The notes under the pieces were generated by a model, which made no database searches, was not told the origin of the DNA, and was given only the letters and a program-made list of their open reading frames with translations. From Aquabacterium sp. (lineage in GTDB: Bacteria > Pseudomonadota > Gammaproteobacteria > Burkholderiales > Burkholderiaceae_C), in NCBI RefSeq assembly GCF_029946005.1, contig NZ_JAQSDR010000006.1, positions 124,001 through 188,000 of the forward strand: a DNA stretch of 64,000 nt, read 5' to 3'. Below are positions 12,626 through 31,831 of the stretch, piece after piece. Made by a program: the position numbers and the translations under genes. The first letter of the stretch is position 1. Every line of letters starts with the position of its first letter.

Positions 12626-13445
12626 GGTTGGGATGCTCCGGCGTCGAAGCCCAGGGCTTGCGGGGTGGTGGCAGCGCAGCGCGCAATGGCATTGAAGATG
12701 TGGAGCAGGCCGCGTTCGATGGCGGCTGGTCCGGGCGACAGGATGTCGGACGATGGGATGTCTTGCATCATCGCGTTCAGGGCGGGGAAGCCTTCGCGGG
12801 CCAGCACCTTTTCAGGTTCGAAGCGCTGACCGCACCAGGCACCCATGATGAGCTGCGGCTCGGCTGCCAAGACCTGCTCCGGCGTGACGGCGCGCTCGCG
12901 CGAAGGAAAGCGCTGGGCGGTCTCGGCGAACACGTCGATGCCGCCCGCCAACTGGATGATCTCGCTGATCCAGGCAATGCCGCAGATCAGGGGCGAATGC
13001 CATTCTTCAAAGTAAACGCGGGGCTTGAAAGGCAGCCGCTGCGCGGCCTGAGCCACCTTGGATTGAATGGCTTCCAGCTCGCTGACCAAGCCCTCGGCAG
13101 CTTCGGTGCGCTGCACGACCTGCCCCAGTTGTCGGACCATGTCGGACACGCCAGCCAGGCTGCGGTGGTTGAACCACATCACCGCCACGCCAGCCTCGGC
13201 GCAGGCATCGAGCAAGGGGCGTTGAACTTCAGAAAATCCGATCACCAAATCGGGCTGGACATCGAGGATGCGCTCAAGCTTGCCGGTCTTGAAGCCGCTG
13301 ACCTTGGGCTTGTCTTCGCGGGCCTGGGGCGGGTAAACCGTGAAACCCGAGATGCCTGCGATGCGGTCTTGCGCGCCCAGGCGGTAAAGCACATCGACCG
13401 ATTCAGTCGACAGACAGGCAATGCGTTGAGGGCCTTGCGGTGTGT

Positions 13446-13449
<4 letters not shown>
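12622..13449 (-). CDS. BtuF-like corrinoid-binding protein without signal peptide
   Basis: The 275-residue protein belongs to the helical-backbone periplasmic-binding fold (BtuF/FecB class): RIACLSTESVDVLYRLGAQDRIAGI at the start, then KLERILDVQPDLVIGF, and CGIAWISEIIQLAGG in the second lobe. Unlike the btuF at 25417, it begins MNTPQGPQR with no hydrophobic signal, and the upstream frame is only the shadow of cobQ, so no export signal is missed. It is coupled on both sides (ATGA with cobQ and with cobT). It may bind corrinoid in the cytoplasm, or be a domain freed from transport; its function is not known. Cobinamide or metal binding cannot be told from sequence. Confidence 0.75.
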
Positions 13450-14944
<1,495 letters not shown>

Positions 14945-14948
<4 letters not shown>

Positions 14949-15979
14949 GGGTTGATCTCCGCGTGGGCCAGCGCATGGAACAAGGCCTGTTGAGAGCCGG
15001 GCGCCTGGGCGCTCAAGCGCACCCACCCCGGCATGCCAAAGCTGGTGGCATCGCGCAGCTTGATGCCATGCGCTCGCAAGCCGTTGACCGACTGCGCAGG
15101 CCGCGCCAGCATGAAGGGCACCACGGATGGCTGGCAATGCCAACCCAGGCGCGTCAAGGCCATGGTCTGCGCGGCCATCCACAGCAGCAAGGTTTGGCGT
15201 GATCTGGCCAGCCAAGCTTGGGTGCCCGCCTGATGCCAAGCCTGCAACATGGCCACGCCTTCGGCCGATAAAACCCAACTGGGGGCCAGGGCCTGGACGT
15301 TTGCCACGCCCAGCAGGGCATCCTCAATGGGTGCGATCACATACCCGGCGCGCACACCGGTCAGGCCCAATGCTTTGTTGGGTGAACACAGCTGCCAGCA
15401 TTGATCAGCGAACGCCGTGGGCACGGGATCCTGCCCCGTCAGGCGCAAAGGTTCGTAAGCGCGGTCCAGCACCACGGTCACGGGACGCTGACGCTTCAAC
15501 TCGGCCAGCGCCGCCCAGAATGCTGGCGGCAGGGTTTGGCCCGTGGGGTTGCAGGGTTCGCACAACCAGACCAGCGAAGGGCCCACCTGCGCCTTCAAGG
15601 CAGCCAGCAAGGCCTCTCCATCGGCATGGCCCTGCGCATGAAGGCCCAAGGCCAGCGCGGCGGACCGGTAGTCGCCATAGCCCGGTTGCGGCACCCACAC
15701 CTGACGCACGCCTTGCAAGGATGCAGCCAAGGTCAATCGGCGGATGGCCTCGCTGCTGCCCGCCGTGGGCAACACGCGCCCGGCCTCGACGTCCAGCACC
15801 TGGGCCAGGTACTCGCGCAAGGCTTGGTAGGCGGGATCAGGGTAACGCTGGCGATCGGCCGCGTGGATCGCTTGAACCACTTCGTCGGGCGCCCCCAGCG
15901 GGTTGGCGTTGCTGGAGAAATCATGGGCGATCGGCGGGCCGCTGTCGGGGCCACCGTGTTCGTTCAGGGGCGGCATCAT
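14945..15979 (-). CDS. cobD: Threonine-phosphate decarboxylase (CobD/CobC type)
   Basis: The 344-residue protein is a PLP-dependent fold-type I aminotransferase relative. It has NANPLG near residue 27, the substrate and PLP-binding CEPCNPTGQ, DRAYEPL, and the Schiff-base lysine in SPNKALGLTGVRAGY. The enzyme decarboxylates L-threonine phosphate to (R)-1-aminopropan-2-ol phosphate, the linker that CbiB attaches to cobyric acid. The start ATGATG at 15979 overlaps the cbiB stop. In Pseudomonas naming this gene is cobC; I use the Salmonella name. Confidence 0.92.
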
Positions 15980-16911
15980 CCGTGGCCTCCTTGTGCCCAG
16001 CAGGCAGACAACAACATGAGCAAGACACTCAACACGGCCGCCCACCACACCGCCCGCTGCGCCCAGGCCAAGGCTTGCGCGGTGTGCCGCGCCTCGGGCA
16101 ACTGAGCAGATTCGTTCAACACGTACACCCCCGGCTTGCCCAAACGGACCTTCAGCAGCAAGGCCATTACGCCCATGGGCCACCCGCCGTTGGGCGATGG
16201 CGTGGCACGCGCCTGCCGCGTGATCGACGACCAGGTTGGCATGGCCCCTGCCGACAGGCACAGCAGCAAAGCCGTGATGCGAGCGGGCAGCCAAGACAGG
16301 ATGTCGTCGGCACGGGCGGCCCATTTCCCGGCCCATTCGTAGCGACCGCGGTAGCCCCACATGGCATCGGCCGTGTTGGCGAAACGGTAGAGCGCGGCCG
16401 CGCCCAGGCCCCCCACGGCGAACCACAACAGGGGTGCCACCAGCGAATCGTTCAGGTTCTCGGCCAGCGATTCAATCGCGCTTTCACGCACGGCCACCTC
16501 GTCCAACTGGCTCACGTCGCGGCTGACCAGGCGTTGCAGTTGTGCCCTGCCTGCACCAAGGGATTCGCCCAAGGCCCCTTCGACCGAGGCCACCTCGTCA
16601 CGCAGCATGCGCCACGCCAGCAGGGGTTTGAGCAGCACCCCCAGCAACAAGGTCTGCACATACCACGCGCATTCCGACAAGCCACGCTGTGCACCCCATG
16701 CCAACATCATGACCATCCCGCCGCCCACACACCAGGCCACCGCGCCACCCAGGAAAGCAAACCCCGGCCGCCAGGCACTCAGGCGCGGACCCAGCCAAGC
16801 CAGGTAACGACCCATGGCCACGACAGGGTGCGCCCACGTCGGCGGCTCGCCCCAAAGCCGGTCGATCAGCAAGGCCACGGTCATGGCCAGCAGGGGCACC
16901 CACGGCGACAT
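15976..16911 (-). CDS. cbiB: CbiB, adenosylcobinamide-phosphate synthase
   Basis: The 311-residue membrane protein starts MSPWVPLLAMTVALLIDRLWGEPP, the typical CbiB/CobD N-terminus with DRLxGEPP and then HPVVAMGRYLAWL. A later ESLAENLNDSLVAPLLWF and DAMWGYRGRYEWAGKWAAR are also diagnostic. It condenses cobyric acid with aminopropanol (phosphate) to make cobinamide (phosphate) at the inner membrane. I chose the ATG at 16911, four bases after the cobO stop; an earlier in-frame start at 16953 would lie inside cobO. The stop overlaps cobD. Confidence 0.93.
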   Translation of the reverse strand: MSPWVPLLAMTVALLIDRLWGEPPTWAHPVVAMGRYLAWLGPRLSAWRPGFAFLGGAVAWCVGGGMVMMLAWGAQRGLSECAWYVQTLLLGVLLKPLLAWRMLRDEVASVEGALGESLGAGRAQLQRLVSRDVSQLDEVAVRESAIESLAENLNDSLVAPLLWFAVGGLGAAALYRFANTADAMWGYRGRYEWAGKWAARADDILSWLPARITALLLCLSAGAMPTWSSITRQARATPSPNGGWPMGVMALLLKVRLGKPGVYVLNESAQLPEARHTAQALAWAQRAVWWAAVLSVLLMLLSACWAQGGHG

Positions 16912-16915
16912 CGGG

Positions 16916-17485
16916 TCAGTCTTCGATGCCGCGTTGGGCGGGCACGCCTGCATGGTAGTGGTGCTTGACGGCGGCCATCTCGGTCACGGTGTCCGCGATG
17001 TCGATCAACTCTTGGGGGCAGCCACGGCCCGTCAACATCACGTGGACATGGCTGGGGCGGTTGCGCAAGGCTTCGAGCACGGGTTCCAGCGGCACCCATC
17101 CGTAGCGCAGCGGGTACATGATCTCGTCGAGCACCACCATGAAATGCTCACCAGCGTTGATGGTTTCAAGCGCGCGGGCCCAGCCATCGCGGGCCAGTTG
17201 GGCCGAGTGCTCCAGGTCGCGGCTCTTCCAGCTGAAGCCGTCGCCCAATCCTTCAATGGGCACGCCGAGTTGCTCGAACACGCGGTGCTCGCCAAAGCGG
17301 GCACTGGGCACCTTCATGAACTGGTAGATCTTGACGGCCTTGCCACGGCCATGGGCACGCAGCGCCAGGCCAAAGGCCGAGGTGCTTTTGCCCTTGCCAT
17401 CGCCGGTGTTGACCAGCAAGAGGCCACGGCGTTCGCCATCGGGTTTTTCAACCTGGCGGTCAACGGGGGGGGATTCGATTTCCAT
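16916..17485 (-). CDS. cobO: CobO/BtuR/CobA, cob(I)alamin adenosyltransferase
   Basis: The 189-residue enzyme has the P-loop NTGDGKGKSTSAFGLALRA near residue 26 and later VVLDEIMYPLRYG and LTGRGCP, all diagnostic of the CobA-type ATP:corrinoid adenosyltransferase. It attaches the 5'-deoxyadenosyl group from ATP to Co(I) corrinoids, including cobyrinic acid diamide and cobinamide, in the cytoplasm. The 30 bp gap from the cobN stop is the largest gap in the operon, so an internal signal could lie there, but I see no clear hairpin. Confidence 0.95.
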   Translation of the reverse strand: MEIESPPVDRQVEKPDGERRGLLLVNTGDGKGKSTSAFGLALRAHGRGKAVKIYQFMKVPSARFGEHRVFEQLGVPIEGLGDGFSWKSRDLEHSAQLARDGWARALETINAGEHFMVVLDEIMYPLRYGWVPLEPVLEALRNRPSHVHVMLTGRGCPQELIDIADTVTEMAAVKHHYHAGVPAQRGIED

Positions 17486-17515
17486 GAAGGTCTTTCCAAT
17501 CTTGGGGGTCAGGGA

Positions 17516-20500
17516 TCAGGCTCGGACGGGTCGGCGCAGTGCTTGCCACGATGCACCACCGACCACCAGCAAGGCCATCACAGCAGCGGCCAAGGCACGC
17601 GACAGCTCCCGGCCAACATCCATTTCAGCTTCGGGATTATCAGGCTGACGCTTCAGCAACAGGCCTTGAAGGCTGGGGGCCGACCTCGGCTCGTCCACTG
17701 GTTTTTGAACCGGCGCTGGACTAGGTTGCTGTGCGATGTGGGGCACTTCTGATTGGGTGGGCTCGTGCAACTGCTGCGCCACCCAATGCCGCACGGGCCC
17801 CATCTCACCGGGCAAGGGCGCCTCACGGGTCAGTTCCTTGTACAACTGGGCCACCTGCTGCTGAGTGGCCGCGTCGGGTTGCCAATACCCCATGCGCTGG
17901 GCCTGCACCAGGCGTTCCAGCGATTGGGCGTAGGCCTGTGGGTGCGTGCGCAGCCATTGCGGCAGCCCCAGCTTGTGCTTGTCTTGCACCAGCACTTCGT
18001 AGAAATTCTGCCAGTGGTCGGGGCGCACGGTGTCGGGCGCGGTCACTTGCCAGCCCCAGGCAAACTGCAAGGCCTTGAGCACTTGCAAGGTGCCTGAGTA
18101 GCCCTCGGCTTTCTGGGCTTGCAACCAGCCGGGGTGCAGGTAACGCGACTGCATCTCCAGCGCGATGCTGGTGGCGGCCGACTGCGTATGCACCTCGCTG
18201 GCGTCTTGCAGCTGGTTCACATACAAACCCAATGCTTCGGTCTTGCCCGCGCTGCGCGCCGCCGCCGCCAAACCGCCCAGGTACTGGAAGGGGTCATCGG
18301 ACGTGACCATGGCGTACAGGTGCGAGGTGCGCGACAACACCGCCGCCTGCGTGTGCCGCAGGTGCGAGCCCAAGGCCTTGGCGGCCACGCCCTGGGGCAA
18401 GCCCTCCAGCGGTTCTCCATCAACATAGGGCTGGCTCATGCGCTGCAGGAACATCTCACCCAGGCGGCTGTCATCGCGTTGAACGCCTTCGGACTGAACC
18501 GCCGCCGACAAGCCCGTGCCGTAGTCGCCGCTCACGTTGCCGAACACCCGCGCCCGGGCCAACACCTGCGCCAGCGCACGCGGCACGCCTTCCTTGAGCA
18601 ATTCAGCCGCGACCACGGCGGTGTTGCTGGAGACCGCATTGCCCGGCTCGGCCGTGGAGGCCGCCGCGACCGCCTGGTCCACCAAGGCCATCAAGGCCGG
18701 GAACTGGTCGCGGTAAGAACCGGTGATGCTGAGCAACACGTCCACGCGCGGACGCTGCAACACCGAAGCCGGGATGACATGCACGCCCGTCGGCCTGCCC
18801 GAGTCATCCCACACCGGTTCAACCCCCAAGGCCACCAGGGCTTGCGCCTCCATGATCCCTTGATGGCGCAAGGTCTCGCCCGCCCACAAGGACAAGGCCA
18901 TGCGCGTGGGCGTTTGACCGCCATGCTCGGCACGCCAGGTCTTGAGCCAATCGTTGAACAAGCCTTTGGCCACCTCATGGGCTTGCCGGGTGGGCAGGCG
19001 ACTGGGGTCCAGGCCTGTCAGGTTGCGGCCAGTGGGCAGGCTGTCGGGATTGCGGATGGGGTCGCCGCCATAAGCCGCGGTGATGAAGTGCCCCGACAGG
19101 GCCGTGAGCAATCCGGGCATCTCGCCTTCGGTGGACAGCAAGGCTTCCAGGGCTTGTGCCCGCTCGGCCAGCTTGAACAAGGCGGGGGAATCAATGGGCT
19201 TGCGCGCCGCTCGGTTGGGCACCGGTCCACTGGGCAAGGCGGGCCGCAGATCGAGCGTGCTGGCCTTTTGCGCGTCAAGCAAGGCGACGTCCAGCCAACG
19301 CGAAGGACGCGCCGTGGCCAGAGACTCGTGGTTGATCAGGAAGGCCTCGTCGATGTCTTCGCCCAGCGCCTCGATCAAGGGCTTGCGCAAGGCCTGCAAG
19401 ATGGTCTGATGACGCTGTGCGGCTTCAGGCACCCGCCCAAACACCGCCAAGCCCTTGGGCTGGGAACTCTGCGCCAGCGTGTCCAAGTAGGGGTGCAGCA
19501 ACTCCAGGAAGCCAGAAAAATCCGCCGCGATGCGCTCGGCCGTCCAACCCAGGTCACGGTGCAATTGGTGCTCCACGAAGTTGCCGATCAACTGGCGTTC
19601 CAACGCCTGCCGCGTGGGCCCGGCATCCACGGTTTCCCACTCGTGCATCAGCTCGTGCATGTGGGCCATCTTGGCCTCGAAACCCGCGGGCGAAAACACC
19701 GGCGTCTTGTGGCTGACCAGCACCGCGCGCCCACGCCGCTTGGCCGTCAACGCCTCACCCAGGTTGTCGACGATGTAGGGATAGACGACCGGCACATCGC
19801 CCAAGGGCAGCAAGGCGTCATCCCAGACGTCCAGGCTGCGCGCCTTGCCCGGTGCCCATTCCTGCGTGCCATGCGTGCCAAAGTGGATCAAGGCATCGGC
19901 CTGCCGGGCCCACAGGTACACCGCCAGGTAATGGTGGGACAACGGCGTCTTGCTGCGGTGCATGAAAGGGTTCTGGCCCAGGTGCAAGGTTTCTTCACGC
20001 GGCGGCTGGGGCAGCACTGCCAAGCGCCCGACCTGCATGCGCGGGATCACAAACACCCGTTGCCCCTGATAAGACACCACGTAGCGGCTGCTGCCCGGCG
20101 CGCCCCATTGCGCCTCGATGCGCTGGCGGACCTTGGCGGGCAGTGTCGCCCACCAGGCTTCGTAGTCTTTCAAGGGCAAGGCGGCGGCCTGGTTCTTGGC
20201 CAGCAAGGCCTGGAGGTCTGAGCCGGGGTAGTAGGCGGCCAGCATGGGCTTGAGCCCGTCGATCCACTGCGCTTCAGGCACGGCCTGCGTGGTGTACTCC
20301 GCCTGCGCCAAGCTGCCGGACACCTGCTCCAGGCTGCGCGGCACGTTGAGGAACGAGGCCCCGAAATTGCTGCCGCCCGGCGGGTAGTTGTAGACCATGG
20401 CCACCAGGCGTTTGTCGGCCACTGGCTTGGTTTGCAGGGCGATCAGGCGGCGCGCCTTCGCCACCACTGCCTGGGCCTGGCGTTCGATCAACTCAGGGCG

Positions 20501-21529
20501 ACGGCCTTGGTCGGCGTGGGCGACCACCATGATCGGGTCCACGGCGCCCGCGCCTTCGGGCTGGGCCAGGTAAAACGGCACATCGCTTTGCGACAGGCCG
20601 CCCTCGTCCTGCTCCCAGGCCGCCGTGTCGGCAGACCGGTACGGCTGTGTCAACAGCACCGGCGCGCCCCAACGGGCGAACAAGGGCTGCAAAGCGGCAC
20701 TTTGCGGCAGCAACTGGTGAATGACCACGACCTGAGCGTGCAGGTGACGATCTGCCCCATTGGCCCCATCGGGCCCAGGCACCTCCAACAAGCCAGACAA
20801 ACCAGCCGCATCCACCTGCTGACCAAAAGCCGCGTAAGCAAACATGCCTTGCTTGGCGAACATGCGCAGCCACGCATCGATCCACTGGGTGGCGCCATTC
20901 ACGAAGTGATACCGGTGCACCAACAACACCACCGCGGGTCGGCCACGCAGCGCACCTTGTGCTTGCTGCCATTGCGACAAAGCCTGGGCATCGGCAAACA
21001 AGCCGGGTGCGTCCGGGTGGTACAGACCACGGCTGGGCCAGGCCTGGGGTGCGGGCAGCTCAGGTGCTGGCAAGCCTTTGATGAGGGCCTTGGACAAAGC
21101 CAGGGCATGCTCGGTGTTGCGCTCGCCCCCCGCTTGCAGGTAGGCCGCGATGCCTTTCGCACCACCCTGCGGGGTGACCCACACCACGTTCCGGGCTTTC
21201 AGCAGAGGCTGACTCAGCAAATGCTCCAGGCGGGCCTGCGCGGTGACGTGCGGCGCATCAACCCACGCCATCGCCGAAGCTTCCAAGGCCGCATCCAGCG
21301 CCGAGGCCTCGGACGCGGTGAGCCTGCTGCTGCCCCGCAAGGGGTACTCGATGTGCTGCACGCTCAGGCCCTGCTGGCGAGCCAGCCGCTCGATCATGGC
21401 GGTGCGGGGAGCGGGCGTGACATCCGTGGTCAACCACAGCACCACGGGCGACGCCGCCTGCGCACTCACACACAGGCTCAGCAACAGCAACAGCCACACC
21501 AACAAGCACCGCACACCAGACATGGCCAT
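17516..21529 (-). CDS. CobN-like magnesium/cobalt chelatase-type protein, exported and membrane anchored
   Basis: The 1337-residue protein has the CobN/BchH family core, including the HFGTHGTQEWAPGKARSLD region near residue 550, which is typical of the large chelatase subunit. The N-terminus is a signal peptide (short polar start, Leu-rich core, then SAQA|A). The C-terminus has a Pro-rich linker and one hydrophobic segment (about 1312-1330) followed by RRPVRA, which predicts a large periplasmic domain held to the inner membrane. True cobaltochelatase CobN is cytoplasmic and works with CobS/CobT ATPase subunits; none are here. It follows ExbB-like and ExbD-like genes. Start: ATG 21529 (a TTG at 21535 would overlap the upstream stop). 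A role in corrinoid uptake or remodelling is inferred. Confidence 0.85.
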   Translation of the reverse strand: MAMSGVRCLLVWLLLLLSLCVSAQAASPVVLWLTTDVTPAPRTAMIERLARQQGLSVQHIEYPLRGSSRLTASEASALDAALEASAMAWVDAPHVTAQARLEHLLSQPLLKARNVVWVTPQGGAKGIAAYLQAGGERNTEHALALSKALIKGLPAPELPAPQAWPSRGLYHPDAPGLFADAQALSQWQQAQGALRGRPAVVLLVHRYHFVNGATQWIDAWLRMFAKQGMFAYAAFGQQVDAAGLSGLLEVPGPDGANGADRHLHAQVVVIHQLLPQSAALQPLFARWGAPVLLTQPYRSADTAAWEQDEGGLSQSDVPFYLAQPEGAGAVDPIMVVAHADQGRRPELIERQAQAVVAKARRLIALQTKPVADKRLVAMVYNYPPGGSNFGASFLNVPRSLEQVSGSLAQAEYTTQAVPEAQWIDGLKPMLAAYYPGSDLQALLAKNQAAALPLKDYEAWWATLPAKVRQRIEAQWGAPGSSRYVVSYQGQRVFVIPRMQVGRLAVLPQPPREETLHLGQNPFMHRSKTPLSHHYLAVYLWARQADALIHFGTHGTQEWAPGKARSLDVWDDALLPLGDVPVVYPYIVDNLGEALTAKRRGRAVLVSHKTPVFSPAGFEAKMAHMHELMHEWETVDAGPTRQALERQLIGNFVEHQLHRDLGWTAERIAADFSGFLELLHPYLDTLAQSSQPKGLAVFGRVPEAAQRHQTILQALRKPLIEALGEDIDEAFLINHESLATARPSRWLDVALLDAQKASTLDLRPALPSGPVPNRAARKPIDSPALFKLAERAQALEALLSTEGEMPGLLTALSGHFITAAYGGDPIRNPDSLPTGRNLTGLDPSRLPTRQAHEVAKGLFNDWLKTWRAEHGGQTPTRMALSLWAGETLRHQGIMEAQALVALGVEPVWDDSGRPTGVHVIPASVLQRPRVDVLLSITGSYRDQFPALMALVDQAVAAASTAEPGNAVSSNTAVVAAELLKEGVPRALAQVLARARVFGNVSGDYGTGLSAAVQSEGVQRDDSRLGEMFLQRMSQPYVDGEPLEGLPQGVAAKALGSHLRHTQAAVLSRTSHLYAMVTSDDPFQYLGGLAAAARSAGKTEALGLYVNQLQDASEVHTQSAATSIALEMQSRYLHPGWLQAQKAEGYSGTLQVLKALQFAWGWQVTAPDTVRPDHWQNFYEVLVQDKHKLGLPQWLRTHPQAYAQSLERLVQAQRMGYWQPDAATQQQVAQLYKELTREAPLPGEMGPVRHWVAQQLHEPTQSEVPHIAQQPSPAPVQKPVDEPRSAPSLQGLLLKRQPDNPEAEMDVGRELSRALAAAVMALLVVGGASWQALRRPVRA

Positions 21530-21531
21530 GC

Positions 21532-21897
21532 TCAACGGCCTCCCGGCCCTGTGGCTGCCGCGGATTTAGGCGCCGAGGCACCCGACTCCGGCACGTACAC
21601 GATGTTGCCATCATTGAGCTTGTAGGCCACGCCTGCGCGCTGGCCTTCACCGGCACCGGCAGTGCCCGCGCCCTTGAACTTGATTTCCTTGCCGTTCTCG
21701 CGCACCACCACCTCCATGTTGGGCTGGCCCGGGTTGCGGATGATGGTGACGTTGTCCTGCGCATTGCTCTGGCTTTGCGCGGCCACGGCCGTCAACAAGG
21801 CCACCACCAACACCAGGAAGACATCGACCAGGTTGACGGCCGACAGCATCGGGTCGTCGTCGTCTTCAGCCAACACGTGGATGTGCTTGAAGCTCAC
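21532..21897 (-). CDS. DUF2149 family protein, ExbD/TolR-like
   Basis: The 121-residue protein starts at a GTG that overlaps the upstream stop (GTGA, 21894-21897). After an acidic stretch (EDDDDP), one membrane segment begins NLVDVFLVLVVALL; its Asp is residue 25, the same position as the essential proton-carrying Asp25 of E. coli ExbD, in a similar local pattern. The rest is periplasmic, ending in a small domain (NMEVVVRENGKEIKF) and a flexible tail. The family is recorded next to CobN-like and MotA/ExbB genes. It probably forms the D-type partner of the channel protein encoded just upstream. This is inference from topology and context. Confidence 0.8.
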   Translation of the reverse strand: MSFKHIHVLAEDDDDPMLSAVNLVDVFLVLVVALLTAVAAQSQSNAQDNVTIIRNPGQPNMEVVVRENGKEIKFKGAGTAGAGEGQRAGVAYKLNDGNIVYVPESGASAPKSAAATGPGGR

Positions 21898-22361
21898 AGC
21901 GCCACCTCGCGCGCCTTGCGCACGTTCAACAGTTCGGCCAGCAACCAGCGGCGACGCACCGAGTAGACGGTCAGGCCGATGGACGCGGCCGCCAAGGCCA
22001 GCACCACCCCGGCGAAAGCGCCGCTGAACACTGACAAGGCCTGCTGCCCCTGGCCGGCGGCCACGCTTTGAAGCGCCGGGCCCAAGGGGATCATCGTGGC
22101 GATCAGGCCGAGCATCGGGCTCAGGCGGCTGAGCAAACGCACCGGCTCGATCTGCCGAACCACGGACAGTTCCAGCTCTTCCATCGACAGCTCGGGCGTG
22201 ACGCGCAATGCCGTGTAGCGTGGATTGCGCCAGCGCTGCCAGCCCTCCATCATGGTCATGCCACCAGTCCACAAGGCATACACAAAGCCCAGGGCCACCA
22301 GCGTGAGCACAGGCCACAGCAGCGACTGCGCCACTTGAGAAAAACCAGATTCAATCATCAT
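21894..22361 (-). CDS. MotA/TolQ/ExbB-like proton channel protein
   Basis: The 155-residue protein has three membrane segments: about residues 13-35, about 80-102 (SPMLGLIATMIPLGPAL) and about 112-135 (FSGAFAGVVLALAAASIGLTVYSV). The second matches the ExbB/TolQ pattern P-x-LGL-x-x-T, with the Thr that lines the proton path. It is shorter than E. coli ExbB (244 residues). It overlaps the cobyrinate diamide synthase stop by four bases and is followed directly by the ExbD-like gene. The pair should form a proton-motive-force-driven motor that acts on the exported CobN-like protein or on the BtuB receptors; which of these is unknown. Confidence 0.82.
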   Translation of the reverse strand: MMIESGFSQVAQSLLWPVLTLVALGFVYALWTGGMTMMEGWQRWRNPRYTALRVTPELSMEELELSVVRQIEPVRLLSRLSPMLGLIATMIPLGPALQSVAAGQGQQALSVFSGAFAGVVLALAAASIGLTVYSVRRRWLLAELLNVRKAREVAL

Positions 22362-23674
22362 GTCGGGGCTCCAGGAGCGAACAAGGCGGAGACGGCCGCC
22401 GGATTGGAGGGAAAGTACAAATGCATGAAGGAGGCGTGCAAGCGGCCATCGCGGTAGATCCCTTCGGCCTTGCCCAATGGACGCTGCGGCAGCGTTGAAG
22501 CCACCGGGGTCATGGGGCTGTCCATGCTGGCGTGGTGGAAGGTGTGGCCCCGCAGGGCGCCCTCGGGCAAGGTCACGCCGTGCATGCCCAGGTTGACGAA
22601 GCGCTTTTGCAGTGCCGCCTTGCCGGGCATCAAACCGAGCATGGGGGCCACCTGTCCCTGCACATCACTGAGTGAATCCAGCAGGTACAGCATGCCGCCA
22701 CACTCGGCCACCACAGGCTTGCCTTGGGCATGGTGGGCATGGATGGCGGCCTTCATGGCGCTGTTGTGCGCCAACTGGTGCAAGTGCAACTCGGGATAGC
22801 CGCCGGGCAGGTAGAGGCTGTCGGCCTCAGGTAAGGCGGCGTCACTCAAAGGCGAGAAGGAGATCAACTCCGCGCCCAGTTCGCGCAAGGTGTCCAGATT
22901 GGCCGGGTACAGGAAAGAGAACGCGGCATCGCGCGCCACGGCGATGCGCACTCCTTGCAAGCTACGCTCAAGGGCCACGCTCTGTTCGGACTGGGGCGGC
23001 TCAAAGTTCACTGGTGCTGGCAAGGCGGGTGACAAGCGGCCCAAGGCCTGCGCCGCCTGGTCGATGCGCTGCTCCAAGTCCGCGATTTCTTCGGCCTGCA
23101 CCAAGCCCAGGTGCCGCGACGGCATGCCATAGGCCTCGTTGCGCGGCAGCGCGCCAAACCAGGCCATGCCCTCGGGCAGGCTTTCACGCAGCATCTGCGC
23201 GTGCGACTCGCTGCCCACCCGGTTGGCCAACACCCCAGCCATGGTCAAACCTGGGCGGTAGCTTGCCAAGCCCAAGGCGATGGCGCCAAAAGTTTGCGCC
23301 ATGGCCGAACCGTCAATGACGGCCAGCACCGGCAAGCCAAAACGCATCGCGAGGCTCGCGCTGGAGGCATCGCCATCGTGCAAGCCCATCACGCCCTCCA
23401 CCAGGATCAGGTCAGATTCGCACGCGGCCTGGTAAAGCATCTCTCGGCAATGCGCCTCGCCGCCCATCCACAGGTCCAACTGGTACACGGGCTGGCCGCT
23501 GGCACGCTCCAGGATCATCGGGTCCAGAAAATCAGGCCCAGTCTTGAAGACCCGCACGCGCAAGCCTTGCTGGCGGTGCCAACGGGCCAGGGCTGCCGTG
23601 GCGGTGGTCTTGCCCTGGCCGGAAGCCGGGGCGCTGATCAACACGGCGGGGCATTGCACGCTGGGCTTCCTCAT
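22358..23674 (-). CDS. cobB: Cobyrinate a,c-diamide synthase (CobB/CbiA)
   Basis: The 438-residue protein has an N-terminal P-loop (SAPASGQGKTTATAALARWH), the metal/ATP segment KTGPDFLDP, VEGVMGLHDG, and a C-terminal glutamine amidotransferase domain with the Cys nucleophile in AECGGMLYLLD and the LPGGYPELH motif. It amidates the a and c carboxylates of cobyrinate (CbiA-type) or hydrogenobyrinate (CobB-type). The start at 23674 overlaps the btuD stop (ATGA). Because no corrin-ring genes lie in this operon, a salvage role on cobyrinate-like precursors is likely unless ring synthesis is encoded elsewhere. Confidence 0.93.
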   Translation of the reverse strand: MRKPSVQCPAVLISAPASGQGKTTATAALARWHRQQGLRVRVFKTGPDFLDPMILERASGQPVYQLDLWMGGEAHCREMLYQAACESDLILVEGVMGLHDGDASSASLAMRFGLPVLAVIDGSAMAQTFGAIALGLASYRPGLTMAGVLANRVGSESHAQMLRESLPEGMAWFGALPRNEAYGMPSRHLGLVQAEEIADLEQRIDQAAQALGRLSPALPAPVNFEPPQSEQSVALERSLQGVRIAVARDAAFSFLYPANLDTLRELGAELISFSPLSDAALPEADSLYLPGGYPELHLHQLAHNSAMKAAIHAHHAQGKPVVAECGGMLYLLDSLSDVQGQVAPMLGLMPGKAALQKRFVNLGMHGVTLPEGALRGHTFHHASMDSPMTPVASTLPQRPLGKAEGIYRDGRLHASFMHLYFPSNPAAVSALFAPGAPT

Positions 23675-24453
23675 GCGGTGTGAGGCATGGCCAACCACTG
23701 CCCCTCCACGTTGAACAACTTGAGCCGGTGGTCAAACACGTCTTGCAGCGCAGCGTGAGACGACGGCGCATCGACCGGGCCATGGTGGCGCACCAAGCCC
23801 TTGGCCATCACCACCAGGTCATCGGCCTGCAAGGCCATGTTCAGCTCGTGCAGCACGCTGACCACGGTCACGCCCTGCGTCACCAGCCCCCGCACGATGC
23901 ACAGCCAGTCGGCCTGGTGCGGCGGATCCAGGTGGGCCAAGGGCTCGTCCATCAAAACGATGGGCGCCTGCACGGCCAATGCCCGTGCCAGCAATACGCG
24001 CTGACGTTCGCCGCCCGACAGGTGGGCCAGGGTGCGGTCCTTCCAGGCCCAGCAATGGGTTTGCGTCATGGCCTGTTGCACGGCGGCATGGTCGGCCGGG
24101 CTGGCAGGCGCCAACCACGCCTGGTGCGGCAAGCGGCCCAGCATGACCACGTCGAACGCACTCAGGTCATCGGCACCGGCTTCACTTTGCCCCAGCCAGG
24201 CCAAAGCGCGAGCGCGCTCCTTGGCGGGCCATTCATGCAGTGGTCGGCCCTGCAAGCCAATGTGCCCGACGAAAGTCTGCAAGCCCGCCAGGGTGCGCAA
24301 CAGCGTGGACTTGCCCGCGCCATTGGGCCCGACGATGGCCGTCCAGCGGCCCGCTGGCAGCTTCAAGGAGATGGGGTGCAACACCAATTGCTTGGACAAA
24401 TGCACCGACCGGATCTCAGCGCTCAGCGCGGTGGTGTGATGAGGCGTGTTCAT
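23671..24453 (-). CDS. btuD: BtuD-like cobalamin ABC transporter ATP-binding protein
   Basis: The 260-residue ATPase has a Walker A motif (GPNGAGKSTLLRTLAG near residue 43), the signature LSGGERQRVLLARAL, and Walker B with VLMDEPLAHLD. It powers corrinoid import with BtuC. I chose ATG 24453 (MNTPHH), one base after the btuC stop; a GTG at 24462 would overlap btuC. The downstream cobB start overlaps its stop. The same family also includes hemin and ferric siderophore ATPases, but the operon and the riboswitch fix the substrate class as corrinoid. Confidence 0.93.
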   Translation of the reverse strand: MNTPHHTTALSAEIRSVHLSKQLVLHPISLKLPAGRWTAIVGPNGAGKSTLLRTLAGLQTFVGHIGLQGRPLHEWPAKERARALAWLGQSEAGADDLSAFDVVMLGRLPHQAWLAPASPADHAAVQQAMTQTHCWAWKDRTLAHLSGGERQRVLLARALAVQAPIVLMDEPLAHLDPPHQADWLCIVRGLVTQGVTVVSVLHELNMALQADDLVVMAKGLVRHHGPVDAPSSHAALQDVFDHRLKLFNVEGQWLAMPHTA

Positions 24454-24454
24454 G

Positions 24455-25420
24455 TCACCCACCCCGGTTCATGCGCCACAGCAAATAGCCACCACCCAAC
24501 ACGGCGGTGAGCACGCCCACCGGCAGCTCTTGCGGCGCCCACACCCAACGCGCGACGATGTCCGCCCCCAGCAGCAGCACGCCGCCAAACAGGGCTGACA
24601 GCACCAGCACCGGGCCATTGGTGGCATTGACGCGGCTGCGCACCAAGTGCGGCGCCACCAGGCCCACGAAGGAAATGAGACCCGCCTGCGCCACAGCCGC
24701 CCCGGTGGCCAGCGCCATGGCCGCGATCAGCAGCATGCGGACACCCGCCAGGCGCACGCCCAGACTCATGGCGGCCGAGTCGCCCAGGGTCAGGGCATCC
24801 AGCGCGCGGCTGCAACCAAAGGCCACCAGCGCGCTCACCACCAAGGTGCTCGCCAGGATCGTCACACTGTTCCAGCCCAGGAAGCCCGTCGTGCCCATCA
24901 TGAAAGCCTGCATGGCCCGCATGATGTCGGGCACCATGAGCATGGTCAGCGCGCTCAAAGCACCCAGCACCACACCCACCACCACGCCGGCCAACAAGAG
25001 GCGCAAGGTGTGCTGCACGCCACGCGCCAGGATCAAGGTCAGTGAGACCGCACCCACCGCCCCCACGAAGGCCGCGCCGGTCAGGCCCAGGCGCAAGCTC
25101 CACGCCGATGCCACGGGCGAGACGCCCAACAAGGCCAACAACACCGCCACACCCAAGGCCGCTCCAGATGAGCTGCCCAAGAGGTAAGGATCCGCCAAAG
25201 GGTTGCGGAACAGGCCTTGCGCGATGGCGCCGCCCAGGCCCAGCAGGGCCCCGGCCAACCAGGCGCCCGCGCAACGCGGCGCGCGGATGTCCCACACGAT
25301 CTGCATCGCCGTGGGATCACCCCAGGGCGGCGACCAACCCGTGCTGCCCACTGCCAGGCCCAAGGTCATGAAACCAAGCGTCACCACAACCAACACGAAC
25401 AGCAAAGTGATCGGCCTCAT
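24455..25420 (-). CDS. btuC: BtuC-like cobalamin ABC transporter permease (FecCD family)
   Basis: The 321-residue protein starts MRPITLLFVLVVVTLG and has about ten membrane segments. Typical FecCD/BtuC motifs are present: RCAGAWLAGALLGLGGAIAQ near residue 50, NPLADPYLLGSSSGAALG after it, and GLVAPHLVR near residue 248. It forms the inner-membrane corrinoid channel with BtuD and receives substrate from BtuF. The start at 25420 overlaps the btuF stop by four bases; longer in-frame starts lie inside btuF. Confidence 0.94.
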   Translation of the reverse strand: MRPITLLFVLVVVTLGFMTLGLAVGSTGWSPPWGDPTAMQIVWDIRAPRCAGAWLAGALLGLGGAIAQGLFRNPLADPYLLGSSSGAALGVAVLLALLGVSPVASAWSLRLGLTGAAFVGAVGAVSLTLILARGVQHTLRLLLAGVVVGVVLGALSALTMLMVPDIMRAMQAFMMGTTGFLGWNSVTILASTLVVSALVAFGCSRALDALTLGDSAAMSLGVRLAGVRMLLIAAMALATGAAVAQAGLISFVGLVAPHLVRSRVNATNGPVLVLSALFGGVLLLGADIVARWVWAPQELPVGVLTAVLGGGYLLWRMNRGG

Positions 25421-26322
25421 CGAACCGCACCCGCCCCCATGGTCACCGCCGACGCACGCAAGCAGTTCGCCATGATCTGCGCCGCCTCCCCCATGCGCGG
25501 GCCGGGGCGCGACAAGACATCGCCCTGCTCCAAGGTGAACGCGCACACATGCTTGTCGCGCACCGCGCGGATGCGCTCCCAGCCTGGCCGTGCGCCCACG
25601 CCCGCCGAATGGCGCTGAGAAATCATGATGACCTGGGGATCGGCCCGCACCACGTACTCCGGGTTCAGCTTCGGAAACGGCCCCAAGCTGGTGGGCACGA
25701 TGTTCTTGGCGCCCAGACGGGTCAGGGTTTCGCCAATGAAAGACGACTCGCCAGCGGCATAGGGCGCACTGTCAACTTCGTAGTAAACGCTCAGGCCTCG
25801 CGCGTTGACGGGCACCGTCTTGGCTGCGGCGTCCACCTGGGCCTCCAGCCGCTGCCACAAACGCAAGCCACCATCGGCGCTGCCCAGGATCTGGGCGACC
25901 TTGCCCGCCACGCGTTGCACATCCTTGTAAGTGCGGGGCTCCAGCGCCACCACCTTCAGGCCCAGCGACTCGAGCCGCTCGCTCACGCGCGATGACAAGG
26001 CCAGCAGCACCACATCGGGCTTGAGGGAGGCGATCAGCTCGATGTTGGCGTCGTCCAGACCCCCGGTCTTGGGCAGGTTGCGCACCGAAGCCGGGTGGTT
26101 GGAGTAGCGATCGGTGCCCACCAAGCGCGCGCACCCGCCCAGTTCACACACCGTCTCGGTCAACGATGGCAACAAGGTGATGATGCGGGTCGGCGGCGAC
26201 TCCAGGCGCACGGTCACGCCGCGGTCATCGACCAGGGTCACGCCCGGCGCGGCATGGCTCACCTGCATTGCAGCAGCCATCAAGGCACACAGCATCCCCC
26301 ACCGTATCGTCTTCATGCTCAT
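25417..26322 (-). CDS. btuF: BtuF-like periplasmic corrinoid-binding protein
   Basis: The 301-residue precursor has a signal peptide of about 24 residues (cut near SHAAP). The mature protein follows the class III binding-protein layout: PPTRIITLLPSLTETVCELG, GLDDANIELIASLKPDVVL, a long linker helix, and a second lobe. It delivers cobalamin or cobinamide to BtuCD. It is followed by btuC (overlap) and preceded by cobU with a one-base gap. It differs from the second BtuF-like protein in the operon, which has no signal. Confidence 0.92.
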   Translation of the reverse strand: MSMKTIRWGMLCALMAAAMQVSHAAPGVTLVDDRGVTVRLESPPTRIITLLPSLTETVCELGGCARLVGTDRYSNHPASVRNLPKTGGLDDANIELIASLKPDVVLLALSSRVSERLESLGLKVVALEPRTYKDVQRVAGKVAQILGSADGGLRLWQRLEAQVDAAAKTVPVNARGLSVYYEVDSAPYAAGESSFIGETLTRLGAKNIVPTSLGPFPKLNPEYVVRADPQVIMISQRHSAGVGARPGWERIRAVRDKHVCAFTLEQGDVLSRPGPRMGEAAQIMANCLRASAVTMGAGAVR

Positions 26323-26323
26323 G

Positions 26324-26887
26324 TCATTCCCCGTGCGGCGTCACCGGCCGCGTCCATGCCTGCCCCGCCACCATCAAGGTCACCTGGCCACAACGCTGTG
26401 CCACCGCCTGATTGAGCCAACCCAGTTCATCCACAAAGGCGCGCACCTCGCGCGACATGGGCACGATGCCCCAGCCCACCTCGTTGGACACGAAGACCAC
26501 AGGCGATGGCAGGTGGGGCAACACCGCCAACAGCGCCCCGCGCTCCGCACGCCATGCGGTCAGATCGGCCTGGCCTTCCGCAGGCATCAGCCAATTGGTC
26601 AACCACAAGGTCAGGCAATCCACCAGCAGCAACCGCCCTGGCAAGGCCTGTGCACGCAAGGTCTCGGCCAGACGCAAGGGTGCCTCGGCCGTGGCCATGC
26701 CCACGGGCCGCTCTTGCTGATGGCGTTGGATGCGTTCGCGCATCTCATCGTCAAAGGCCAGCGCCGTGGCCACCACCGTCACGCTGTGCGCCTCCGACTG
26801 CCGCAGCCAGGCCTGCGCCAGCCGCTCGGCCTGGCGCGACTTGCCGCTGCGTTGTCCGCCAACGATCAGGTGGTGTTCGGGCATCAC
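26324..26887 (-). CDS. cobU: CobU/CobP, adenosylcobinamide kinase/guanylyltransferase
   Basis: The 187-residue enzyme begins MMPEHHLIVGGQRSGKSRQAE with the P-loop GGQRSGKS, then VDCLTLWLTNWL and VSNEVGWGIVPMSREVRAF, all diagnostic of CobU/CobP. It phosphorylates adenosylcobinamide and then transfers GMP to make adenosylcobinamide-GDP, the substrate of CobS. The ATGATG start overlaps the stop of the second btuB in the operon. Confidence 0.95.
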   Translation of the reverse strand: MMPEHHLIVGGQRSGKSRQAERLAQAWLRQSEAHSVTVVATALAFDDEMRERIQRHQQERPVGMATAEAPLRLAETLRAQALPGRLLLVDCLTLWLTNWLMPAEGQADLTAWRAERGALLAVLPHLPSPVVFVSNEVGWGIVPMSREVRAFVDELGWLNQAVAQRCGQVTLMVAGQAWTRPVTPHGE

Positions 26888-28755
26888 AACTCCGGTGTCC
26901 AGCGCACACCAATGATGGCCGTGCGTGGGGCGCTTGAGTAGGTTTGAGCGTTCTCGTACTTCTTGTCAGCCACGTTGTCGATGCGCGCAAGCAGGCGCCA
27001 GTGGGCGTTGATTCGGTAGAGCGCATCCACGTTCACCACTGTGTAGCCGCCCAGGGGCTTCTTGTTGGCCGCATCGTCAAAGCGCTTGCCCACAGCCAGC
27101 AACTGCGCGCCCAAGGTCCATTGTTTCAAATCCGTGTCGAGCCGCAGTGAGGCATGACGACGTGCCCGACGCTGAAGATCCGCATCATTGAGTGCGTTCT
27201 TGGAAGAATCAAAATCAATGGCCCCTGACAGGCGCACAGGCCCCAATGGCAAAGCCCCGTTCAGACTGATGCCCTTCAGGTGCGCCAACGCGGTGTTCCT
27301 GTAGCAATAAGCCGGGTCTTGCACACACGTTTTGGTGCTACCAGGAGGCCCGACGATGAGGTCGCTCACCCAGTTGTTGTAGGCTGTCATGCCCCATTGG
27401 GCCCCGTCTTTTTGATACCGCACGCCAACATCGGCGTTGCGCGAGGATTCAGCTTTGAGCGCGAGGTTACCGAATTGGCTGAAGCGTTGGTACAAGGTCG
27501 GCGCGCGATACCCCGTGCCCCAAGACGCGTGAACATTCCAATGTTCTGCGAAGTCCTGGCCCGCAGCCACCGATCCCGTGCTGTGCGCGCCAAACTCGCT
27601 GTCCCAATCGTTGCGCGCATTGAGTTGAATGGCCGTGCCATGCGCACGCCACGCGTAGCCCAAGCCCAGGCCGTCGTCGCTGCGCTGGCCTTCGCCAACG
27701 GTGCCTGACAAGACGACCTGGCTGTTTTCAAGCGTGTCTTCGCGGCGCTCCAGCAGCGTGGTCACAGAATGGGCGCCCCACTTGAGTTCATTGAGCCAGG
27801 AGGCCGTGTCCACGTGGGTTTCGGTGCGGTAGTTCTTGTCCAGCGGCGTGCGGTATTGGTCGACCGACCGCCCCCCCGTCACTTGGCTCGACCAGTGATC
27901 CCACCATTGCGCGGTCCATTGAAGTTTCAAATCACGCCGATCCCGCAAGGCGTAGTCATCGCGGCTGGCGACGGTTGAGTCATAACGGCTGAGCATGTGC
28001 TGCTGCGATGCGATCGCCTCGATCCGGTGTGCCGCCGAGGGCGTGAAACCAAAACGGAGGTTGCCCCCCTCCGTGATGTACCCATCCCGGTCGGCCATTC
28101 GGGTGCCTGGAACAGCATTGTTCTTCGCACTAAAGCCATCGCTCTGCTCTCTGGCCACCGAGACCGCGTAGTCAAACAGGCCCGTCGCACCGCTCAAGCC
28201 AGCATCGGCCTTCAAAAATCCCAACTCTCCAGCCGACAGGCCCAGCTCAACGCGCGCAGGGCCTTTGCCCTTCTTCGTGAAAATCTGGACCACGCCCGAA
28301 ATCGCATCCGAGCCATACAAGGCGCTGACCGGGCCACGCACGATTTCGACGCGGTCAATCTGCGACAGGTTCAACAGCTGCCATGACGCGCCACCGCTAC
28401 CGTTTTGCGTGTCGATCCGAACACCATCAACCAGCACGGCAATGAACCTGGTTTCACCACCGCGCAGGTACACATTGGCATCCGCGCCCGGCCCACCACT
28501 GCGCGCCACCTGGAACCCAGCGACGTGGCTCAGCAAGTCCACCATGGTGCCCGAAGTCTGCCGCTCAATGTCCTCTCTCGAAATCACGGTGACGTCGGCC
28601 AAGACCTGCGACAGAGGCACCGGGGTGCGCGTTGCCGTAACGACCAAGGGCTCGAGCGCGCCCTTGCCCGCCGTTTGCGCCCATGACGAGCACCCAAGGC
28701 ACAACAAAGCTGCGCCCAACACCAAAGATTTGAAGTTATCCATGGTGCAGCCCAT
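26884..28755 (-). CDS. btuB: TonB-dependent corrinoid receptor (BtuB-like), second in operon
   Basis: The 623-residue precursor has a signal peptide (MDNFKSLVLGAALLCLGC start), then a TonB-box-like segment (EPLVVTATRTP) that resembles E. coli BtuB, a plug domain with YLRGGETRFIAVLVDGVRI and RVEIVRGPVSALYGSDAI, and a 22-strand barrel pattern. The last residue is Leu rather than the aromatic residue usual for outer-membrane barrels. The start at 28755 overlaps the stop of the other receptor (TAATG); an ATG at 28743 would give a tidier signal peptide. It imports corrinoids across the outer membrane. Confidence 0.9.
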   Translation of the reverse strand: MGCTMDNFKSLVLGAALLCLGCSSWAQTAGKGALEPLVVTATRTPVPLSQVLADVTVISREDIERQTSGTMVDLLSHVAGFQVARSGGPGADANVYLRGGETRFIAVLVDGVRIDTQNGSGGASWQLLNLSQIDRVEIVRGPVSALYGSDAISGVVQIFTKKGKGPARVELGLSAGELGFLKADAGLSGATGLFDYAVSVAREQSDGFSAKNNAVPGTRMADRDGYITEGGNLRFGFTPSAAHRIEAIASQQHMLSRYDSTVASRDDYALRDRRDLKLQWTAQWWDHWSSQVTGGRSVDQYRTPLDKNYRTETHVDTASWLNELKWGAHSVTTLLERREDTLENSQVVLSGTVGEGQRSDDGLGLGYAWRAHGTAIQLNARNDWDSEFGAHSTGSVAAGQDFAEHWNVHASWGTGYRAPTLYQRFSQFGNLALKAESSRNADVGVRYQKDGAQWGMTAYNNWVSDLIVGPPGSTKTCVQDPAYCYRNTALAHLKGISLNGALPLGPVRLSGAIDFDSSKNALNDADLQRRARRHASLRLDTDLKQWTLGAQLLAVGKRFDDAANKKPLGGYTVVNVDALYRINAHWRLLARIDNVADKKYENAQTYSSAPRTAIIGVRWTPEL

Positions 28756-30757: not shown

Positions 30758-30770
30758 GGTGCAAAGCACC
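30758..30770 (-). promoter_or_regulatory. Hairpin after the cobalamin riboswitch
   Basis: GGTGC and GCACC pair perfectly around a three-base loop directly after the B12 box on the minus strand, 57 bases before the btuB start. It may be part of the expression platform. The structure lacks a T-run, so a simple terminator is unlikely. Confidence 0.45.
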
Positions 30771-30775
30771 CCCTG

Positions 30776-30984
30776 TTGGCCGGTATCCGGGCTGAGCAGT
30801 ACAACCCGTGCGGCCTTCCCAGATGCGTGGAGCATCCAGTGGCAAGAGAGCACGGGCGAAGGACTTGGCAAATGCGCCGAGCCCTTGACCACCGACCGTT
30901 GCGGGGGCAGCGCAGGTAGGGCGCGGCATGTGTGAATGCCTGAACCGTCCTGCTTCCCGTTTAACTGCACCAGGGAGAACCCCA
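30776..30984 (-). promoter_or_regulatory. Cobalamin riboswitch
   Basis: Read on the minus strand, the region has the conserved cobalamin riboswitch blocks in order: an AAACGGGAA segment (about 30954-30963), GCTGCCCCCGCAAC with flanks (about 30895-30911), GCCACTGG (about 30838-30845), GGGAAGGC (about 30814-30821), and the B12 box GCCCGGATACCGGCC (30778-30792). It lies 75 bases upstream of the first btuB gene of the 18-gene operon. Binding of adenosylcobalamin should reduce expression. It appears to be the only such element in the window. Confidence 0.95.
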
Positions 30985-31004
30985 GCGCGAGCACCAACAC
31001 GGCG

Positions 31005-31036
31005 ATTGTAAAGGACTTGGCAAGCAGGCCTACAAT
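31005..31036. promoter_or_regulatory. Overlapping divergent promoter candidates
   Basis: The 32 bp segment has TTGTAA (31006-31011) and TACAAT (31031-31036) on the plus strand, 19 bp apart. On the minus strand the same bases read TTGTAG (31030-31035) and TACAAT (31005-31010), again 19 bp apart. The first would serve the zapA operon, the second the riboswitch operon. The 19 bp spacing is longer than the ideal 17, so this is a prediction only. Confidence 0.4.
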
Positions 31037-31649: not shown

Positions 31650-31831
31650 AATTCGTTCGTCGCGTTCGTGGAAGCTTTTAATTCCTTGAACCGATGCTCT
31701 TAGAGCCAGGGCTTGGAACATTGCGAAGTGGGTGTGATCGTCTCGCGTCAGACGAACCCGAAGCCTCGCTGACCTCGCCCACCTGAATCCCCTGGGTTCA
31801 GGAACGCGGCAACCAGTGCGCGGCGAACACC
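31650..31831 (+). ncRNA. ssrS: 6S RNA
   Basis: The position right after zapA is the usual 6S location. The ends pair: GTTCGTCGCG (31655-31664) with CGCGGCGAAC (31819-31828), with only one G-T pair. Near the 3' side, a CCTGAA...TTCAGG hairpin followed by GCGGC resembles the E. coli 6S 3' arm. A TAGAAT -10-like element is at 31643-31648, which would place the start near 31655. 6S RNA mimics an open promoter and sequesters sigma-70 RNA polymerase. The exact ends are estimated. Confidence 0.8.

Follow-up and report, generated by a model that had tools for sequence, protein, structure and literature searches.

In a 64,000-nt stretch of an Aquabacterium sp. contig (NZ_JAQSDR010000006.1; 'the window', within which positions are numbered), one compact minus-strand set of three genes, running from 22361 to 17516, encodes an ExbB-like channel protein (155 aa; 21894..22361), a DUF2149 protein (121 aa; 21532..21897) and a CobN-like protein (1337 aa; 17516..21529) that is predicted to be exported and anchored in the membrane by its C-terminus. 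Across the loci compared, at the level of sequence, the ExbB-like/DUF2149 pair goes with anchored CobN proteins and not with unanchored ones. We lean, by a modest measure, towards a reading in which the pair works as a proton motor: it would bind the CobN-like protein by its anchored tail and drive a metal-handling cycle on periplasmic corrinoids. Adjacent genes of the triad overlap by 4 bases or are spaced by 2 bases, the pattern expected of coupled translation, and the coordinates uphold an earlier sequence-only reading of this DNA in which the triad was compact and coupled.

The association was counted in a sample of 299 genomes from the phylum of the window, where DUF2149 was found in 11 genomes and CobN in 92. 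By their coordinates, all 11 DUF2149 genes have a CobN gene no more than about 2.5 kb away. A set of 102 CobN proteins, taken from 100 fetched loci plus the window among the matches listed, was classed by C-terminus; seven of the 102 have under 3 kb visible on one side, and three of the 92 genomes contributed no locus, namely G287, G295 and G291, the last of which has its CobN split over contigs (G- and L-numbers denote compared genomes and loci, respectively). Thirteen of the 102 were anchored and 12 of these have both partners within 2.1 kb, versus none of the 89 others with either partner within 7 kb (L287, among the 89, is cut C-terminally by a contig end). The Fisher test gives 1e-14, uncorrected for shared ancestry, and these counts couple the pair to anchored CobN, as expected of the dedicated partners that had been proposed. 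Among 80 loci from the DUF2149 alignment, which cover several phyla, include some cut by contig ends and have no archaeal titles, both partners were present in 78, and CobN in 75 of those 78.

A second sample, 299 genomes of the window's family, contains 49 DUF2149 places in 43 genomes, and all 49 were examined. CobN lies within 2.8 kb at 47 of them, with an intervening gene before it in at least L302, L303 and L304, and at the other two its place is taken by a Sel1-repeat protein. Six of 30 short family loci were at first without CobN; longer stretches placed CobN in L302-L305 and L236, and the sixth, L199, holds the Sel1 client in its longer form, L240. The sister CobN proteins of L053 and L054, both in B12 loci, are 67.8% identical (support 1.0). 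L053 has the anchor and the motor genes, and L054 (6411-10601) keeps its signal peptide and B12 neighbours while its linker, anchor, ExbB-like and DUF2149 genes are missing. Since both are missing together in L054 and present in L053, the anchor tracks the motor.

The CobN-like protein is 1337 aa long from its first ATG (21529); the listed 1339-aa ORF begins at a TTG two codons upstream. Its match to CobN-Mg_chel (PF02514) is full-length (profile positions 2-1089 of 1090, E 1.6e-255), and it scores 1484 bits with NCBIfam NF004644 (CobN), for which the cut-off is 1248. Topology was read by sequence inspection and a hydropathy scan, with no dedicated signal-peptide or topology predictor. By inspection, the N-terminus is a Sec signal peptide (..LLVWLLLLLSLCVSAQA|A; predicted 25 aa, 21455..21529). 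The C-terminus carries, in order, a Pro-rich linker, a juxtamembrane LQGLLLKRQ box that is a candidate motor-docking site (17645..17671), a hydrophobic transmembrane (TM) anchor and a basic end (anchor and tail 17519..17605, hydropathy 1.9). The large domain should thus be periplasmic, and the signal peptide, C-terminal anchor and positive tail described earlier all hold by sequence. The HFGTHG motif (19868..19885) is retained and includes the site that corresponds to the essential His of HmuS (PMC12583661). The second His of HFGTHG-type motifs is retained in most aligned relatives. The second motif, SDDPFQYLGG (18272..18301), is of the CobN type and not of the HmuS type (LDHVYEFMGG); the HmuS-type motif DHxxEFMGG is not present.

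The ExbB-like protein has no Pfam match at 1e-3. Against canonical ExbB its profile-profile probability is 94.5% (E 7.6e-8), and its predicted model consists of three long helices (pLDDT 93.5) with ExbB and TolQ as the closest PDB neighbours. By profile and modelled fold it fits the ExbB/TolQ/MotA proton-channel family, in line with the three-segment channel first proposed. Helix 2 carries Thr89, a position at which all 52 of the 52 aligned sequences have Thr. The DUF2149 protein (PF09919, E 3.3e-24) is predicted to have one TM helix and a small beta-rich part, the model being of low confidence (pLDDT 64.9). In the alignment its Asp25, which sits within NLVDVFLV in the predicted helix, is nearly invariant.

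Anchored CobN proteins have a characteristic tail. A strict box, [VIT]xGxx[LM], precedes the anchor in 87 of 123 anchored CobN, versus 1.4% of shuffled and 3.9% of internal sequences; a relaxed form is found in 114 of the 123, versus 15% and 30%, respectively. The 123 are those CobN whose end passes a hydropathy cut. Falling under this cut are L225, L107 and L228 (the latter two with a weak end segment) and L168, whose TM segment precedes an in-frame receptor: its anchored CobN (12140-17494) continues into a TonB-receptor plug domain, by real fusion or by a lost stop. The window tail fits the relaxed box only, and the HmuS-type L169 fits the relaxed form too, by chance or otherwise. The box is not universal, since L169 and L170 (both HmuS-type), L048, L049 and L053 are without the strict form.

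The same kind of tail occurs on a second protein. At L207 (9884-10669, minus strand) and L240 (10138-10932, minus strand) an exported Sel1-repeat protein of 262-265 aa with a C-terminal anchor replaces CobN beside the ExbB-like and DUF2149 genes, with a histidine kinase and then a response regulator (the latter by sequence) downstream. Sel1 (PF08238) is the only domain detected in it. The L207 protein has 120 database matches, of which 104 are anchored, and the strict box is present in 62 of the 104. A profile built from 47 CobN tails matches 86 of 113 Sel1-client tails at E<=1e-3. Decoys were tails with a C-terminal TM segment from which known CobN tails and ORFs >900 aa had been removed, leaving 572 of at most 900 aa; the single decoy matched is the L240 Sel1 client itself. 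A profile from all 123 CobN tails matches, at E<=1e-3, 77 of the 113 Sel1 tails; of the 572 decoys it matches 2 at this level, namely L166 (a truncated CobN) and L092 (a DUF2162-type ORF), and 7 at E<=0.01. The comparison shows a predicted C-terminal tail common to CobN and the Sel1 client, composed of linker, VxGxxL-type box, anchor and basic end. Since the Sel1 client replaces CobN and its tail matches the CobN profile, two unrelated periplasmic proteins appear to combine one kind of tail with one kind of motor. Class-wide and plasmid searches for further Sel1 clients returned mostly partial Sel1-repeat matches, so placement of the client beside the motor is known from two loci only.

The mechanism that we favour can be put as a series of steps. 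The ExbB-like protein and DUF2149 would form a proton motor, and this motor would dock on the C-terminal anchored tail of the CobN-like protein. Proton flow through the pair would move the tail, and the mechanical cycle of the tail would substitute for the ATPase (CobST, ChlID) that serves the soluble relatives. In the most speculative step, the CobN-like protein would load cobalt into scavenged early corrins, or clear a wrong metal from them. As in the sequence-only reading, we infer that the proton-motive force drives the CobN-like protein. A bolder version, arguable though short of persuasive, is that the ExbB-like/DUF2149 pair is a new proton-driven machine with interchangeable, C-terminally docked clients, of which the window would hold a class I corrin chelatase powered by the proton-motive force without an ATPase. 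Its clients would be CobN-like chelatases, at loci for B12, heme, nickel or zinc, together with the Sel1-repeat protein that stands beside a two-component system elsewhere.

The substrate is probably a corrinoid, handled between BtuB and BtuFCD, because the module lies in a B12 cluster with a cobalamin riboswitch. Twenty-one modules are of the window's type. A full B12 cluster surrounds 19 of the 21; L212 has CobO only (on a short contig) and L219 has none. Besides the window, a cobalamin riboswitch was found in seven of the seven relatives tested. A BtuF-type gene sits between DUF2149 and CobN in six loci, as BtuF-CbiZ in the one scanned (L052), and at L153 (1287-7355) a BtuF-like domain, CbiZ and CobN are joined in a single open frame that ends in a C-terminal anchor, perhaps an assembly effect of this metagenome-assembled contig. 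CobU is present in all 20 B12-type genomes and CbiC in one. CobB is likewise present in 20 of 20 (in G365 as two contig-end pieces, each below the cut-off), and in 11 of 30 control genomes that are CobU-positive, CbiC-negative and DUF2149-negative; these controls were picked by hand, with at least one eligible genome (G321) skipped. On account of these counts, the module associates with ring salvage and an early-corrin enzyme.

For the reaction itself, our tentative choice is that scavenged early corrins are loaded with cobalt or have their metal corrected. The reasons are that the window protein retains motifs of the CobN type, that all 20 B12-type genomes examined have CobB along with the module, and that CobNST acts on hydrogenobyrinic acid a,c-diamide and is cobalt-specific (PMC7689651). 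Elsewhere the module is found beside HmuY (L169, L170), NikR (L088) and ZnuA with NicO (L148), which gives the impression of a platform serving the uptake of metals or metallo-rings in general.

Several observations weigh against a motor-driven chelatase. The helix-3 position of the ExbB-like protein that is Thr in 49 of 52 aligned sequences is Val119 in the window. The likeness of DUF2149 to ExbD, as originally proposed, stands for the nearly invariant Asp in a predicted membrane helix and is without statistical support: the profile test against ExbD gives 3% probability (E 0.015) and aligns only the short Asp helix. L063 encodes a boxed, anchored CobN with no partners in 18.5 kb (2.8 kb visible upstream); its genome carries a complete module at another locus, L044. 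As L054 shows, a CobN that is exported can be retained with no motor genes beside it. CobU occurs in 190 of 299 genomes versus the B12-type module in 20, and the congeners G330 and G451 are CobU-positive without the module; the module is not required for salvage as such, because most CobU-positive genomes are without it. In the accessible portions of PMC12583661, recombinant HmuS strips iron from heme in vitro and a need for HmuU/V is not mentioned. Matches to TonB receptors are present in 121 of 145 module loci. Lastly, 11 anchored CobN that form a monophyletic subclade (L047, L142-L144, L146-L148, L151, L152, L156, L165) have lost both HxGxHG and DDxFQYxGG and retain the anchor and the pair, so the motor may serve a role other than chelation.

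This subclade argues for the alternative that fares best, in which the motor-driven CobN-like protein is a corrinoid carrier from BtuB to BtuF, mechanically cycled and without metal chemistry. We consider it rather unlikely overall; since the motif-less subclade retains anchor and motor, the odds of a role as carrier only are not far below those of metal loading. A Sel1 client with no other domain found, and BtuF fused or adjacent in several loci, would suit a carrier. Against it, the window protein retains HFGTHG and SDDPFQYLGG, and the second His of the first motif is kept by most of the aligned relatives.

An improbable reading makes the pair a spare TonB energizer for the adjacent TonB-dependent receptor, its adjacency to CobN being incidental. 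The homology of the ExbB-like protein to ExbB and the receptors near most modules agree with this, and comparable genes, HmuU/V (PMC12583661) and PA1924 (PMC4542158), were read as receptor energizers. However, the pair follows the CobN anchor, and at L207 and L240 the pair and an anchored Sel1 client occur with no receptor match in 19 kb (by BLAST with few references). DUF2149 also occurs in the archaeon Methanosarcina acetivorans, a control match of our searches, and this organism has no outer membrane. Twelve of the 145 module loci also have a separate canonical ExbD, and in these the pair has no monopoly on energizing TonB. A role shared with the receptor is conceivable, because receptors lie near 121 of the 145 modules.

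It is very unlikely that the window protein is an HmuS-type reductive heme de-chelatase that stands in a B12 cluster by chance. A Bacteroides hmu operon has the same kind of triad, and among PDB matches of the window protein HmuS (9d26, E 5.1e-88) ranks first by a narrow margin over CobN (7c6o, 4.4e-87). Yet the second motif is of the CobN type, the His-Gly-Arg (HGR) of the HmuS heme site is missing in an alignment with the HmuS-type proteins of L169 and L170, and the protein has 27 Met, whereas two proteins of the HmuS type have 56 and 46. Heme is also disfavoured by the surrounding B12 genes and their riboswitch, and in the tree (from which L131, cut by a contig end, was left out) the window protein lies far from HmuS-type proteins. 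An ordinary cytoplasmic CobN of de novo B12 synthesis, which the NCBIfam assignment would suggest, is scarcely credible for a protein with a signal peptide and anchor in a genome (4.53 Mb, listed completeness 100, single CobN) that has no match to CobT (PF06213; CobS, ChlI and ChlD were not searched for), as the sequence-only reading had expected, or to the ring-making marker CbiC (other ring genes were not searched for), CbiC being lacking in 19 of the 20 B12-type genomes too.

Several known systems resemble the triad. TonB-ExbB-ExbD and TolA-TolQ-TolR resemble the window in an ExbB/TolQ-like protein, a single-TM partner with a membrane Asp and a Pro-rich client linker. TonB and TolA are anchored by the N-terminus, whereas the clients here are anchored C-terminally, and homology of DUF2149 with ExbD/TolR is without statistical support. 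The CobNST cobaltochelatase and the Mg-chelatase ChlHID share the CobN family and the HxGxHG motif. They differ in being soluble and ATP-driven via AAA+ subunits, and the pair is near 0 of 89 unanchored CobN. It is incompletely understood what class I chelatases require their ATPase for (PMC7689651).

Closest in architecture are the heme systems. HmuS is a structurally solved heme de-chelatase (PDB 9d26) encoded with ExbB-like and DUF2149 partners (PMC12583661), and P. gingivalis HmuS, when expressed in E. coli, was reported as a possible inner-membrane protein exposed to the periplasm (PMC13227078). The HmuS/HmuU/HmuV system of Bacteroidota and the window share an exported, anchored CobN/ChlH-superfamily protein with HFGTHG, a MotA/TolQ/ExbB protein and a DUF2149 protein. 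HmuS differs in acting on heme and in carrying LSLDHVYEFMGG, an HGR at its heme site and an insertion rich in Met; the window has SDDPFQYLGG (LSLDHxxEFMGG in HmuS), no HGR and a B12 cluster. The published model assigns HmuU/V to the receptor, not to HmuS (PMC12583661). Predicted periplasmic, anchored CobN-like proteins had already been named BtuS (Rodionov 2003, cited in PMC6460266). By sequence and hydropathy, the window protein has both traits of a BtuS, a signal peptide and a membrane anchor. The proposed role of B. fragilis BtuS1/BtuS2 is metalloporphyrin salvage; the double mutant grows poorly on heme iron, and protoporphyrin release persists (PMC6460266). The P. aeruginosa operon PA1922-PA1925, which is Zur-regulated under zinc starvation, comprises TonB receptor, CobN-like and 'ExbD' genes (PMC4542158, PMC8456098). 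It concerns zinc, not B12, its ExbD was assigned to the receptor, and the likeness is one of gene descriptions, not of sequences.

Periplasmic CobN-like proteins with such neighbours are thus already known (BtuS, HmuS, PA1923). In the accessible portions of PMC12583661, PMC13227078, PMC6460266, PMC4542158 and PMC8456098, none of docking tail, client swap and proton-driven chelatase is described, and the BtuS account includes no motor. As far as this literature shows, the motor-client evidence, the docking tail and the swapped client are new. If the proposed mechanism is true, a natural swap of the ATPase for an ExbB-like motor makes the ATPase question of class I chelatases testable, the presence of HmuU and HmuV in heme operons is accounted for, and caution is needed before 'ExbB/ExbD' genes of this kind are assigned to whichever TonB receptor lies closest. 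From the docking tail one could also predict which periplasmic proteins are driven by such a motor.

In the window the triad sits between CobB and CobO within a long B12 run of TonB-dependent receptors, CobU, BtuFCD, CobD and others, all features named here being on the minus strand unless stated. The gene for CobB, cobyrinic acid a,c-diamide synthase (22358..23698; NF002204, 445 bits, cut-off 254), overlaps the ExbB-like gene, and that for the CobO/BtuR corrinoid adenosyltransferase (16916..17485; PF02572, E 1.7e-60) follows the triad. Further upstream are the ABC importer genes for BtuD, BtuC and a BtuF-like protein (23671..26322; PF00005, PF01032, PF01497), a BtuB-like TonB-dependent receptor (26884..28755; TIGR01779, 396 bits, under its cut-off of 599.7) and, at the head of the run, a cobalamin riboswitch (30761..31013; RF00174, 71 bits). 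The run and the triad probably form one transcript. A second BtuF-like, periplasmic-binding-type ORF of the run lies at 12622-14055, its BtuF-like part having no obvious signal peptide. A 6S RNA (31653-31831, plus strand; 54.3 bits) stands directly past the head of the run.

Some compared loci have features of their own. CobN-like proteins outside an hmu operon at L050, L051 and L088 carry an HmuS-like DHPFEYLGG, and that of L088 adjoins nikR. L148, of the motif-less subclade, adjoins ZnuA, DUF1007 and NicO genes. On a Runella plasmid (L087) the triad is surrounded by hydrogenase-maturation (hyp) genes, in a cluster that also includes a TonB receptor and an annotated urease accessory protein gene. 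A CbiK-type class II cobalt chelatase gene is near the module in ten loci, including L097, the one checked with Pfam.

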